Positions 9,459-56,742 of a stretch of 64,000 nt of DNA are shown piece after piece. The notes beneath the pieces are model-generated. The model saw nothing but the letters and a program-made list of their open reading frames with translations. It ran no database searches and had not been told where the DNA came from. Each line of letters starts with the position of its first letter. The stretch's first letter is position 1. The position numbers and the translations under genes were made by a program. This DNA is from Planctomycetota bacterium. Its GTDB lineage: Bacteria; Planctomycetota; Phycisphaerae; UBA1845. The stretch is taken from positions 45,222 to 109,221 of the forward strand of contig JAJRPG010000006.1 in NCBI GenBank assembly GCA_024280855.1, read 5' to 3'.

Positions 9459-10412
9459 ATGTATAACTCAGAATTGCTGCGCAACCCTTCGTCCACCTAT
9501 CCCCATTCGCACGCGGCGTCTATCGCGATTGCGCCTACTGATGATATCTTTGTCACTTGGTACGCTTACCCGGAGGATGAAACACGTGATGCGGTTTTGA
9601 TGCTCGCGCGACGCAGGCCTGGCGCGAGGCTCTTTGATAAACCTATTCGAATCATGGAGCAGTTGACAAAATCGCTAGGGAATCCGGTCATCTTTTTTGA
9701 TCAATTTGGCACGTTGCATTTGCTGTTCGTCTCGCTTCATGGCCATTATTGGGATAGCGCCAAGCTGTATGCGACTAATAGTGAGAATTTGGGGCAGACC
9801 TGGTCTACGCCACATGTGCTGCAATTATCTGATGGCGTTATGTTGAGATATCCGCCCATCGTCCGAACCAATACCTATATGTTGTTGCCCGCTTATAACG
9901 AAAAAACCAACCAGACGGTCATGCTGATGGGTGGCCCTGATGGTGAGGGATGGTATGAGGTTGACCATTTTGATGGTCTGCAAGCTATCCAGGGAAATAT
10001 CGTAAGGCGGGACGAAAAAAACCTCACGATGATTCTTCGGCCTTATGGACAGGAACGATGTTGTATGCGATGTATGTCCAGCGATGATGGCAAGACTTGG
10101 ATGCCGGTGATGCGCACGACGCTGCCCAACCCGTTGTCCGGTGCGGCTGCATTTTCAATGGATGGTACGCTTTGTGTGGTATACAACCATACGACTGAAC
10201 ATCGTCGGTATCCCATCAGTTTTTCCAGTTCAACGAATCAGGGAACGTCATGGTCCGAGCCGATACATCTTGATGCAACGGAGCATGAGCTTTCGTACCC
10301 TGCGTTCACCGTTGATAAGAATGGTGTTGCCCACGGCGTCTATACGTTTGGTCGAACGGCTATTCAGTATGTGGCGTTTGATACAAGCTGGTGGAAAAAT
10401 CATGGCGTATGA
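9459..10412 (+). CDS. BNR/sialidase-like repeat protein
   Basis: Asp-box-like motifs: TNSENLGQTWSTP, SSDDGKTWMPV, SSTNQGTSWSEP. Confidence 0.6.
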   Translation: MYNSELLRNPSSTYPHSHAASIAIAPTDDIFVTWYAYPEDETRDAVLMLARRRPGARLFDKPIRIMEQLTKSLGNPVIFFDQFGTLHLLFVSLHGHYWDSAKLYATNSENLGQTWSTPHVLQLSDGVMLRYPPIVRTNTYMLLPAYNEKTNQTVMLMGGPDGEGWYEVDHFDGLQAIQGNIVRRDEKNLTMILRPYGQERCCMRCMSSDDGKTWMPVMRTTLPNPLSGAAAFSMDGTLCVVYNHTTEHRRYPISFSSSTNQGTSWSEPIHLDATEHELSYPAFTVDKNGVAHGVYTFGRTAIQYVAFDTSWWKNHGV

Positions 10413-11010
10413 GAAAATAGCCGACTTCAAAAATCTGCACAGGGGTAAGAATGCTTTTATTCTTGCGTCAGGCCCATCGCTTGCGCAGATGGATTTGTCG
10501 CTGTTAAGCCGTCGCATCGTGATTGGTTTGAACCGCTCGAGTATTACCTTCCCAGAAACACATTACCACTGCACGATGGACCTTCGCATGTTCAACGAGT
10601 TTGAGACGCTGCTCCGTAAGAGCCGATATTTGTTCACGCTCGAAGACAGGCCATTTGGCATCCCCATTCATTTGTTAGGCTCAGAAGGGTTTAGCTTTGA
10701 CCTGGAAGAGGGGGTTTATAGCGGGTATACGGTTTCGTATTTGGCAATGCAGTTGGCGATTTATATGGGCTTTAAGAAAATCTTTTATCTTGGCCTGGAC
10801 CTGAAGCACGATAAAGGGCAGACGCACTTCTTCGGGCGGGACCAGGTTTCAGCCAATCATGAAAACACTGAAATTCCCAAAATGATTCGCATGATGGGTC
10901 ATGCGGCGGAGGTGTTAGCTGATACAGATATTAAGGTTTACAACTGTAGCCCAGATACCGCGCTGACCTGCTTCGAGCGGGTAACGCTGGACTGGGCGTT
11001 GCAGCAATAG
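10402..11010 (+). CDS. DUF115 / MptE-like (6-hydroxymethylpterin pyrophosphokinase-like) domain protein
   Basis: ATG at 10402 overlaps the upstream stop; GKNAFILASGPSLAQMD and IYMGFKKIFYLGLDLKH motifs. The ORF-track start at 10141 is too early (out-of-frame overlap with the upstream gene). Confidence 0.6.
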   Translation: MAYEKIADFKNLHRGKNAFILASGPSLAQMDLSLLSRRIVIGLNRSSITFPETHYHCTMDLRMFNEFETLLRKSRYLFTLEDRPFGIPIHLLGSEGFSFDLEEGVYSGYTVSYLAMQLAIYMGFKKIFYLGLDLKHDKGQTHFFGRDQVSANHENTEIPKMIRMMGHAAEVLADTDIKVYNCSPDTALTCFERVTLDWALQQ

Positions 11011-22111: not shown

Positions 22112-22250
22112 TATTGTAGGGCAGCGTCGTAGACCTGCCTTTACCATGGCTTTCGACATCCATTGACATTTGACGGTCTTTGTGCATTCAAATAGTTCAG
22201 GCAGGTCAACCTTTCGTCAGTAAACGAAAGAACGACCGTGCCCTACATAG
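22112..22250. repeat. Nested inverted-repeat element (MITE/REP-like)
   Basis: TGTAGGGCA/TGCCCTACA outer, GACCTGCC/GGCAGGTC inner, CTTTCGT/ACGAAAG hairpin. Confidence 0.55.
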
Positions 22251-27110: not shown

Positions 27111-28787
27111 ATGATAGCGGCTGAAGCGGCAGAACAAAGCATTATTGTCAAGCTTTTAGGTGACAAATCATTGACACCTGGGGGATTGGACGCGCTGCGC
27201 CGCGAGTCAGAAGTGAGCGGGGTTCCTTTGGTGGAAACGCTTGCGCAGCATGATCTTGTCAGTGACGCTGACATCGCGGCTTCTTATGCAGAGCAAAATG
27301 GTCTTCGCTTTTTGGATTTAACGCGGCGATTGCCGAGTCGAGGCTGGGTGTTGACGCTGGCTGAGAACGTTGCCCGTTGCAAAGAATGCATTATCTTCGG
27401 CGAAGTTTCTGGTCAGTTAGTTGTGGCTGTGGTTGATCCTTTCGATGCTTCAGTTCGTATCGCTATTTCAGAACGATTTCAGCGCCCTGTGCAATATGTG
27501 GTTAGTCCGCGATATCAAATTCTCGAAGCAATCGATCATATGTATGGTGAAGCTCGCGCGGAAGGTGCGATGCTTCAGCCTATTGCCCCCATTGCCTCGT
27601 CCGTTTCGACCACGACTGGCGCGGACATCAATATCATTTAACAGTTCGATAGTATTGTAGACGAAGCCGTCGATCGTCGTGCTAGTGATATTCATATAGA
27701 GCCTGAGACCGATCGCCTGCGCATTAGGCTGAGAATTGATGGCCGAATGATGGAGGTGAGGGCGTTCCCGCTCGACGTAACTTCTGCGATGATATCCCGT
27801 GTCAAGGTACTGGCACGCTTGGATATTACCGAACGACGGAAGCCTCAGGACGGGCGATTTTCTCATCACAGTTTCGACCAGCAAATTGATGTTCGTGTCG
27901 CAGTCATTCCTACTTCGCGTGGCGAGCGTGTGACGTTGCGTTTGCTTGCACAGGATCGCTCTCGCCTGACACTGGAACATTTGGGCATGGGGAGTGAAAT
28001 CCGGCAGGCGTTCGGGCGACTTATTCATCGGTCGCACGGCATTATTTTGCTGACTGGGCCTACGGGTAGCGGTAAATCCACGACGCTTTATGCCGCGCTG
28101 GAGACTATTAATACCGTCGACAAGCACATTATCACGACGGAAGACCCGGTGGAATATGATATTGGCGGGGTGAATCAGGTGGCGGTTGATGCGGAGTTCG
28201 GCGTGAGTTTTGCGGCTTCGTTGCGCAGCATCCTTCGTCATGACCCGGACGTGATTATGGTGGGTGAGATTCGAGACGAGGAGACTGCGCATCTGGCGCT
28301 GGAAGCTTCGTTGACTGGTCACCTTGTTTTTTCGACGCTGCATACCAACTCAGCGGTGGGAGCGGTTACGCGATTGCTGGATATGGGGTGCGAGTCGTAC
28401 CTTGTAGCTAGTGCCTTAATCGGAGTCATGGCTCAACGTCTCGTTCGTAAAATTTGCGTGCATTGCAAAAAGCCTTATGAGCCTAATCCAACTGAGCGGG
28501 ACATCATGGGCATTCCGAGAGAACGTACCGGCGTAGTGTTGTATCGTGGCATGGGTTGTACACGATGTTTACGCAGTGGCTATTATGACCGCGTTGGCGT
28601 TTACGAATATGTACCCTTTGAATCTGGCGTATCGCGGCTGGTTATGGAAAAAGCGACAACAGAGGAATTGCAAAAATTTGCGGGTGAGCATGGCGCGATC
28701 TCCCTTCGAGACGACGCCCTAGCTAAGGTACGCGAAGGGGTGACGACGCTGGAAGAAGCACTGCGCGTCACCACACTCGAAGCGTAG
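27111..28787 (+). pseudogene. GspE/PilB-type ATPase interrupted by a single in-frame TAA (27639-27641)
   Basis: Upstream ORF 27111-27641 is a GspE N-domain. In the same frame after TAA: QFDSIVDEAVDRRASDIHIEPETDRLRIRLRIDG..., then LTGPTGSGKSTTLYAAL (Walker A), HDPDVIMVGEIRDEETA and CxxC...CxxC. May be pseudogene, readthrough or sequence error. Confidence 0.85.
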
Positions 28788-38435: not shown

Positions 38436-38870
38436 TTGTGTATACGGATTTTTGAAGTGACGAATAATCCAAAATTTGCTTTTAACGAACGTCGCGAGCT
38501 GTTGCTCGCTAAGGGCCGTAGTTCGGTTCGGCCTCGCTGGTTCGCCGCGCTCGACGCGGTGTTGCACCCTGGTTCTCTGGATGTTTGCCCGGCGTACTCG
38601 GCTCCGGACACCATAAGTCGGGTGTCGCAGGGCGGTTTAGCGGCTGCGTTGCTCGTAGCTGATGATGAGTTCATCGACCCGTTGTCGCTACTGCGCATTA
38701 TTCGTTCTATAGATACGGCTTTGCCCTGTTGCCTGGTCACGACGGAAGCGACCAAGACCATGTTGCAAAGTGCTTTTTTACTTAACGCGATGAGTGTCGT
38801 GACGCACGCCGCTTCGGTGGACGAAATGACGCTCGTTTTACAGCGATTGATTACCCCGGGTTCTGGATAA
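38436..38870 (+). CDS. Hypothetical protein, degenerate receiver-like fold
   Basis: 144 aa ORF, TTG start, alternating alpha/beta pattern (AALLVADDEFIDPLSLLRIIR; CCLVTTEAT). Confidence 0.45.
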   Translation: MCIRIFEVTNNPKFAFNERRELLLAKGRSSVRPRWFAALDAVLHPGSLDVCPAYSAPDTISRVSQGGLAAALLVADDEFIDPLSLLRIIRSIDTALPCCLVTTEATKTMLQSAFLLNAMSVVTHAASVDEMTLVLQRLITPGSG

Positions 38871-38904
38871 ATAAAATAATGAGCAAGGCTGACAGTAGCT
38901 TTGC

Positions 38905-38950
38905 ATTCAAGTATGACCACACACAAGTGTGACCGCACAGGTGTGACAAC
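38905..38950 (+). promoter_or_regulatory. Three direct GTRTGAC-type repeats upstream of groES
   Basis: GTATGACC (38911), GTGTGACC (38927), GTGTGACA (38941), 16 and 14 nt apart; no CIRCE element seen. Confidence 0.4.
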
Positions 38951-38968
38951 AAAGGAGACTGGTAAATT

Positions 38969-39265
38969 ATGGCAAAGTTAAACATCAAACCACTAGGCGA
39001 CAAAGTCATCGTCCAGCGCGTCGAAGCCGACCAAACGACGGCCGGTGGCATCCTTCTTCCCGATAGCGCTAAGGAAAAACCAAAGCGCGGCATCATCCTC
39101 GCGGTGGGTAATGGCCGACTGCTCGATGACGGCACGCGAAGTGAGATGCAGGTCAAGAAAAACGACGAAGTACTTTTCACCAGCTATGCCGGTACCGAAA
39201 TCAAAGTTGACGGTAGTGAGTACATGATTATGGACGAGTCGGACATTCTCGGCGTTGTGAACTAA
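38969..39265 (+). CDS. groES: Co-chaperonin GroES
   Basis: IKPLGDKVIVQRVEADQTTAGGILLPDSAKEKPKRG; GTEIKVDGSEYMIMDESDILGVV. Confidence 0.98.
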   Translation: MAKLNIKPLGDKVIVQRVEADQTTAGGILLPDSAKEKPKRGIILAVGNGRLLDDGTRSEMQVKKNDEVLFTSYAGTEIKVDGSEYMIMDESDILGVVN

Positions 39266-44766: not shown

Positions 44767-46437
44767 ATGGAGTTTCAAATGAATGAGAGAAATCGAAATT
44801 TACTTCGGAGATCATCGGAAAAATTGAAGAGTAGTAAGCTATTGTTATTGGGGTTAATGGTATCGCTTCCTTCCTGCAATATGAATACGAACCCGCAGGG
44901 TAGGGATGCCCCCGGTGGGGCGAACTCCGTTCGTTTTGACGGCCTGCCAGATGCCAGCGCCTCTAACAGTTTTGTAGAAAATTTCTCCTTAAAAACGAGA
45001 TGGCAGAAGCAAAACCTTACGTATTTTATCGCCAACTTTACAAATGACCTCAGCGAGCAGGCCCAACGAAGCATTGTCGAACAATCCTACGCAACCTGGG
45101 CAGCCGTAACGCCACTAACTTTTACAGAAGTAAGCTCTGCGGGCGAAGCAGACTTGCTAATCGGATTTGGAACAGGCGGCCACTGCGAACTTTATGAGAT
45201 CACGGGGACGTCATGCCCATCTGCAGAAGGACAAGGAGGCGAATTCGATGGTCCGAGTGGCGTGCTCGCTCATTGCTATTTCCCGCCAGGTAGTGGCGGA
45301 CCGAACGCCGGTGATTGCCATTTTGACGACGGCGAGCTTTGGGCAGAAAGTGATGCCGGAAGTAACCAGATTCGGTTAATCGAAACCGCTATCCACGAAA
45401 TAGGCCATGGCTTGGGATTGGGACACAGCGAAGACACAAACGCCATCATGTTCCCAAGCTACGACACTTCATTCACTAAAATTCAACTCGGACAGGATGA
45501 TATTAACGGCATCCAACAGCTCTACGGGGCTGGAGATGGCGGCGTTATGCCCGCAGCGCCGCCGAGACCAGATGCTCCGAACCCAGGCGACGTACCAACG
45601 GGCGCAGGCGACCCCGGTACAAACGACTCCGACGGTGATGGCCTTGAAGACGGGTTGGAATTATTCGCTATTGGCACCGACCCCAACAACCCTGACACAG
45701 ATGGCGATGGACTTACCGACTTTGAAGTAGTCTTTGGATTAAACCCGCTAAATCCCGATACCGACGGTGACGGCGTGAATGATGGCGACGAAGTAAACGC
45801 CGGCACAGACCCGCTTACGCCAAATTTCGACGGAGGTGGAGGCGGCGGAATTGCAGGTATATTCTCTGGCCAGGACAGTGAGGGTTCCGCGCTGGCATTT
45901 GAAATTCTCAGCGACGGAAAAGCTGTCGGTTCACTAAGCATTCAGCAGTTCGGATTTGCTACTGAAGTAGACCTTTTCGGAGGCATTGACGCCAATGGTC
46001 AGCTATTACTCGTTTCATACGATTACTTTTTCGTTTTCAGCGGAACCGTATCAGCAGGTAGCGCATCCGGACAAGTCGAAACGCAAGGTGGGTTCGTTGG
46101 TAATTGGTCCGCTTCCGCAGGCAATGACGGAGGTGGTGGTGATGGCGGCAGTGGAGGCGGTGGCCAAGGTGGTGGTGGCGGAACCATCAACGGGGGTTGC
46201 GACGATACATGCCAATTTGCATTCGATAGCGAATGCGACGACGGTCGTCAGGGAGCCATATCGGGAGCCTGTGCGCCAGGTTCCGATTGCAGCGACTGTG
46301 GCCCTGCCGGTTTTTCAGTTCGCTCTCGCTTAATACAAAGCACGGGGAGAGCCGACGCCGACGCCTACCAACCATCGCCGAACCAAAAACAAGGACTGAC
46401 AAGCCCGGTCCACTACCGTGTTGACTGGAAAAAATAA
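44767..46437 (+). CDS. Matrixin-like metalloprotease (lipoprotein) with TSP3-like Ca-binding repeats
   Basis: [19 protein letters not shown] zinc site; [33 protein letters not shown] repeats; lipobox-like LPSCN. Confidence 0.9.
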
Positions 46438-46613
46438 TCAGAAAGTTCACAACCGATGACACGGCAATGCGCCATGTACATCATGTCACCAGATGACCCC
46501 GTGTCCATCGTAAGAACGGACAGCGATAGCTTAAATAGTTATTGCAGATGGCGCGGGGGGACAATAGAGGGCAGTGCCATTCGTGACTGTGGGGCTGTTC
46601 ATTCGGCGCCCCC

Positions 46614-47126
46614 TCACTTCTTCGGGGCAGGCACATGCTGATCGATGAGGATCGGGTTCCCGTCGGGATCGAGCAGCATCAGGCTCGCAGGCCCGGTACT
46701 CGACTCATCGGCTTTGGTCGCGAGCGTGAGCCCCTTGCTCACCAGCGTCCGCTGAATTTCGCGCACGTCGTCGAAGTCGGGGAGCGTTTCATTGGAGCGA
46801 TCCCAGCCGGGGTTGAAGGTCAACATGTTCTTCTCAAACATCCCCTGGAAGAGGCCGATGGTGGTAGTCTCGTTCTGGAGGACCAACCACTTCTGAGCCT
46901 GGTCGCCGCCAGACACCTTGAAACCGAGCTTCTCGTAAAACGCGCGGGAGACGGCTATGTCCTTGACGGTCAGACTGACGGAAAATTTTCCTAACCTCAA
47001 TTGTGCATCTCCTTTTTTATCACTGACGCCAGCCTTCGCGGCATACATCGACGCAGTGCCACCGAGAAAACATAGAACTACGCATAGGGCCCTTCGTGTC
47101 ATCGGTATCTCCAGGTTTGCGTACAT
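46614..47126 (-). CDS. VOC (glyoxalase/bleomycin resistance) family protein with signal peptide
   Basis: KFSVSLTVKDIAVSRAFYEKLGFKVSGG; SLMLLDPDGNPILIDQH. Confidence 0.85.
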   Translation of the reverse strand: MYANLEIPMTRRALCVVLCFLGGTASMYAAKAGVSDKKGDAQLRLGKFSVSLTVKDIAVSRAFYEKLGFKVSGGDQAQKWLVLQNETTTIGLFQGMFEKNMLTFNPGWDRSNETLPDFDDVREIQRTLVSKGLTLATKADESSTGPASLMLLDPDGNPILIDQHVPAPKK

Positions 47127-47451
47127 TTCGCTTAACAGGTCACGATATGGTCGGACATTATACGGGCTAGGGCGGTCTTGTCATACTTTGCGAATTATCG
47201 AAAAGGATAAAGGGGGACGGAACAATAGGCACATGGGCAAATAGGGGACACGTGACTGTCCCGAATGGCGGTATCGACTTTCACATCCGAGCGTACGTCG
47301 ACACGACTCATTTTTTGATCCGATTTTTATTGTCGTTGGCGCCTGCAAAAATTGGCAGTCGTAGATATGAAACAACGGTGAAAAAATAGGACGCGCCTTC
47401 CGCTCGCCATCTAACAAAATTTTAGACATGCGGTAATTTTAGACATTCGTA

Positions 47452-56448: not shown

Positions 56449-56605
56449 GTTCAGTACAGCGGGTGTTCCATTGTTTGCCTACTGGCAAAGAGTGGGGGAC
56501 GGACAGCACTGATGAGAAGTTGAGAAAGCCATACCGGCACTTAATTTGGTTACGGCTATTAATCATCTACTGAAAGTTTGATGGTTAAATAAACGACCGA
56601 CCTTC

Positions 56606-56633
56606 CCCCACCCTTCGGGAGTACCCGAAGAAT
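56606..56633. repeat. Intergenic element core, copy 2
   Basis: CCCCACCCTTCGGGAGTACCCGAAGAAT; contains perfect hairpin CTTCGGG-AGTA-CCCGAAG. Confidence 0.6.
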
Positions 56634-56742
56634 GGAGTACCCAGACCGGTGTTGTCAGAGTGATTTACTTCTGTGAAAATGTTAGTAGAGATGAAGTTTA
56701 GCTAGGTGGTAACATGCCTACTGACCGTAAGGAAATAATCCG

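Follow-up and report, generated by a model that had tools for sequence, protein, structure and literature searches.

Assembly ATPases of the GspE/PilB family are the closest described counterparts of the gene analysed here, and its domain order, Walker A motif and length match theirs. It differs from them in being broken between the MshEN and ATPase domains and in sitting outside a gsp or pil operon. An intact sister of the gene aligns with the solved GspE and PilB/PilF structures (4kss, 1p9r, 5tsg and 6f8l) over a stretch that begins shortly before the stop position and ends at the C terminus. Young pseudogenes of the ordinary kind have been described in Salmonella (PMC2916853); those created by a nonsense change likewise carry one disabling change, show no further decay and have intact orthologues in sister genomes, whereas the allele reported here is known from one MAG only. 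A survey has proposed that bacteria often read through in-frame stops, using a filter for stops shared between species that removes sequencing errors (PMC7918605). As in that set, dN/dS is below 1 on both sides of the stop described here; the surveyed stops each occur in at least two species, whereas this one is private to a single genome.

An interrupted gspE/pilB-like reading frame

The window, the whole 64,000-nucleotide stretch of DNA that we analysed, lies on contig C30 of a Phycisphaerae (Planctomycetota) MAG, a 4.56-Mb draft of 112 contigs that is 96% complete. Positions 27111–28787 of its forward strand form one GspE/PilB-family ATPase frame with 558 codon positions before the final TAG. 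The sole interruption is an in-frame TAA at 27639–27641, flanked by the residues DINII-x-QFDSIVDEAVDR; the frame is free of indels and open from 27642 through 28787. The initial annotation had proposed one ATPase frame split by a single TAA without an indel, open on both sides and with its catalytic motifs intact, and we found its coordinates and frame arithmetic to be right. The 5′ fragment (27111–27641, forward strand) runs from the ATG to the premature TAA and encodes 176 aa with an MshEN (N1) domain. The remainder of the frame (27642–28787, forward strand) comprises 381 codons plus TAG and encodes the T2SSE domain with an intact Walker A motif (GPTGSGKST). Within this remainder, an ORF of 346 aa at 27747–28787 on the forward strand ends at the TAG and shares the frame of the ORF at 27111–27641.

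Pfam profile searches matched MshEN (PF05157) in the N-terminal part (47.3 bits, cut-off 23.1) and T2SSE (PF00437) in the C-terminal part (424.6 bits, cut-off 24.9); the two domains are in frame, but the TAA stands between them. Among NCBIfam models GspE was the closest to the C-terminal part (514 bits), followed by PilB (461 bits), with the C-terminal part scored alone falling under the equivalog cut-offs of both. Searching the whole genome for T2SSE/PF00437 gave 11 matches, one with the TAA inside this gene and ten without a stop. Since this gene alone among the T2SSE matches is interrupted, the observation is not one of chance.

The stop position in relatives and the age of the change

Judged by the C-terminal part, the nearest named relatives are JAJDDW010000061 (isolate OFTM182, 96% identity) and JAJRWX010000034 (isolate Dive96_bin2.90, 92%). 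In two same-genus sister genomes, G001 and G002, the frame runs uninterrupted for 571 and 559 codons, respectively (sequence ...ADINIIEQFDSIVDEAVDRRASDIHIEPETD...), and both read Glu (GAG) where the window has TAA. The initial annotation had raised the prospect that every sister genome would carry a pair of separately initiated ORFs; each of these sisters carries one intact ORF instead. The window protein is collinear with its same-genus orthologue residue by residue, and the stop falls exactly on one Glu. A frameshift or indel in the gene was rejected because the sister alignment is ungapped. Across the close orthologue rows, defined by at least 60% identity and with some genomes counted twice, Glu occupies the stop position in 33 of 33, encoded by GAG in 27 and by GAA in six. 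The stop is thus private to the window genome rather than part of a conserved recoding site. CAA or AAA, suggested earlier as the lost codon, does not agree with the Glu codons of the relatives (GAG, sometimes GAA). All 24 orthologues from the relatives compared are intact through the stop position. Distant GspE/PilB homologues vary at this position and mostly have Arg, Lys or Glu. Where both sisters read GAG, the window has GAA at 7 of 31 codons, so that a GAA intermediate, one step from TAA, would be unremarkable.

We then compared rates of change on the two sides of the stop. Relative to G001, dN/dS was 0.026 before the stop and 0.023 after it, among the lowest of the neighbouring genes; values of about 0.02–0.05 for both halves correspond to strong purifying selection, and such selection, with conservation of the gene, holds across the whole bacterial family. 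When G002 served as the outgroup, private amino-acid changes in the ATPase gene numbered 13 on the window lineage, where scaling by eight other genes predicts 12.9, and 11 on the G001 lineage. There is no excess of lineage changes, so either the event is too recent for decay to show or function persists. Under a simple Poisson model, neutral evolution covers at most about 1.1–1.3% of the branch leading to the window genome from its split with the nearest sister (95% limit), and dS since the stop is at most about 0.009 synonymous changes per site; this dating is approximate, since the model takes synonymous rates to be equal and the counts to be clean, and dS reaches high values of about 1.2–1.5. 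If the gene is dead, its inactivation falls within approximately the last 1.3% of that branch. The clean triplet of same-genus genomes dates the stop event tightly. The low dN/dS reflects selection prior to the stop and is not evidence of continued translation downstream of it.

A probable recent nonsense allele and the alternatives

A recent nonsense mutation or a single-base error, rather than a new decoding mechanism, is the most likely source of the stop. Four options had been listed unranked in the initial annotation; comparison with relatives favours a very recent nonsense mutation, still allows a base-call error, and lends no support to readthrough or to two separately initiated polypeptides. 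We consider that the TAA is probably a genuine and very recent nonsense (pseudogene) allele of a conserved assembly-ATPase gene, and we infer both that the base is real rather than an assembly error and that function has been lost. A point change would have turned a Glu codon into TAA in a gspE/pilB-type ATPase gene conserved family-wide. Translation would then end after 176 residues, yielding the N-terminal MshEN part alone and no motor domain, or traces of it only. The gene would be either a newly formed pseudogene or a null allele that is still segregating. Other intact PF00437 genes in the genome may ease the loss. The strong family-wide conservation speaks against easy loss, and full-length protein made by readthrough would equally explain the absence of decay. 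An allele of this kind would be another example in which gene callers report two partial genes against one in relatives.

Short of reads, a gene that died recently cannot be told from an erroneous base. An error of a single base in the consensus or assembly, or a minority strain variant caught in the MAG, would leave the organism's own gene intact, and we regard this as a tenable but distinctly less probable account. It would fit a fragmented draft of this kind, the isolation of the change within an otherwise undecayed gene, and the strong conservation of that gene in the family. Against it, sister ORFs were mapped reciprocally with the window; apart from one ORF (C19_6701) that has matches in two window frames, at 9606 and at 10669, this turned up no further in-frame stop or clear frameshift in any genuine gene that could be resolved, and the assembly therefore looks clean here. 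The other stops that G001 genes met on the window all fell in shadow frames or beyond the start and stop codons that bound real genes. We accordingly rejected widespread assembly damage, the ATPase stop being the only in-frame stop within the bounds of the genuine resolved genes.

Readthrough of the UAA, in which occasional insertion of an amino acid would give full-length ATPase and the stop would set the amount of protein, appears improbable. Purifying selection on both halves and the lack of any sign of decay would accord with it, but the low dN/dS is explained by selection before the stop arose, and the stop is absent from every relative, with Glu in all of the close rows. The base after the stop is C, a context of inefficient termination, although weak termination before C is documented mainly for UGA, and highly expressed bacterial genes prefer UAA as their stop (PMC5289835). 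The downstream CAG encodes a Gln conserved in the sisters, so this context was inherited and not selected. The survey introduced above argues that in-frame stops are often tolerated in bacterial genes, but it required stops common to two or more species, and a private stop such as this one would go uncounted (PMC7918605). None of the 44 tRNAs with anticodons named by ARAGORN has a UUA anticodon, although with a genome 96% complete this absence is not an absolute one; a further, 45th match, truncated at a contig end, reads CAT in its anticodon loop. Three folds of the RNA at the stop were no better than shuffles (z −0.6 to +1.0). Readthrough as first suggested thus found no backing in relatives, in a suppressor tRNA or in a special RNA structure.

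CAR-YYA is a readthrough motif of plant viruses. The sequence CAGTTC after the stop matches it at five of six positions, but merely encodes a conserved, inherited Gln-Phe, and we discarded it as a signal. A regulated form of UAA readthrough, newly arisen in one species and yielding a low-level pilus or secretion motor, with free MshEN beside the full-length enzyme, is in our view very unlikely. If the UAA did not prevent production of full-length protein, the gene would offer a rare planctomycete example of efficient ochre readthrough.

Equally slight is the chance that the gene is split, with MshEN as a free domain and the ATPase initiated separately. Mechanical calling does return each part as a separate ORF, but the first in-frame ATG, GTG or TTG past the stop, the ATG at 27747–27749 (forward strand), comes 105 bases later, within the conserved ATPase domain, and no clear Shine-Dalgarno sequence precedes it. 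A product from this start would be without MshEN and without the first part of T2SSE, its match to the T2SSE profile beginning at position 48, whereas that of the intact sister begins at position 7. A split gene was seen in no relative compared. Internal reinitiation, as put forward originally, is at odds with usual starts that lie at least 36 codons downstream of the stop.

A genetic-code change by which this organism would read UAA as an amino acid, and for which nothing speaks beyond the one codon, has next to no probability and was rejected: TAA terminates normally here, as the ordinary end of several neighbouring window genes, internal TAA is absent from the other T2SSE genes and from the window genes compared, and no tRNA was found that reads it.

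Gene neighbourhood and other features of the window

The probable nonsense allele lies in a block that is collinear with G001 and contains genes for a SpoIIE/FHA phosphatase, the interrupted ATPase, an SRAP peptidase, CdsA, PhoH, a 7TM-HD protein and YbeY. A gspF/pilC neighbour is usual for operon members of the ATPase family, although not strictly defining. We found no such partner next to the ATPase gene, and its contig gave no T2SSF match. Elsewhere in the genome, a T2SSF (gspF-like) gene is present on contig C26 at 46381–47352 with no T2SSE match nearby, and it may be a candidate partner of the interrupted ATPase.

Several other features of the window were recorded. At 22192–22246, an intergenic 55-base imperfect palindrome forms a hairpin with a CTTTCG...CGAAAG core; it has at least 40 further copies in the genome at 86–100% identity and dozens in the sister genome, and is a REP- or MITE-like dispersed family. 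A second dispersed element of about 185 bases, at 56459–56649, has eight further long copies (79–87% identity), and its end pieces of about 41–46 bases, with the hairpin CTTCGGG-AGTA-CCCGAAG, occur in many copies elsewhere in the genome; it looks like a composite miniature mobile element. Between 9459 and 11010, ORFs overlap in different frames, and the match to an ORF on contig C19 of G001 may represent a rearrangement, a repeat or a frameshift. An apparently interrupted match at 38786–39262 was dismissed because its stop lies upstream of the start, at 38966, of a groES-like gene. This gene (38966–39262; MAKLNIKPLGDKVIVQ...) falls below the 100-aa listing cut-off and is well conserved with the sisters.
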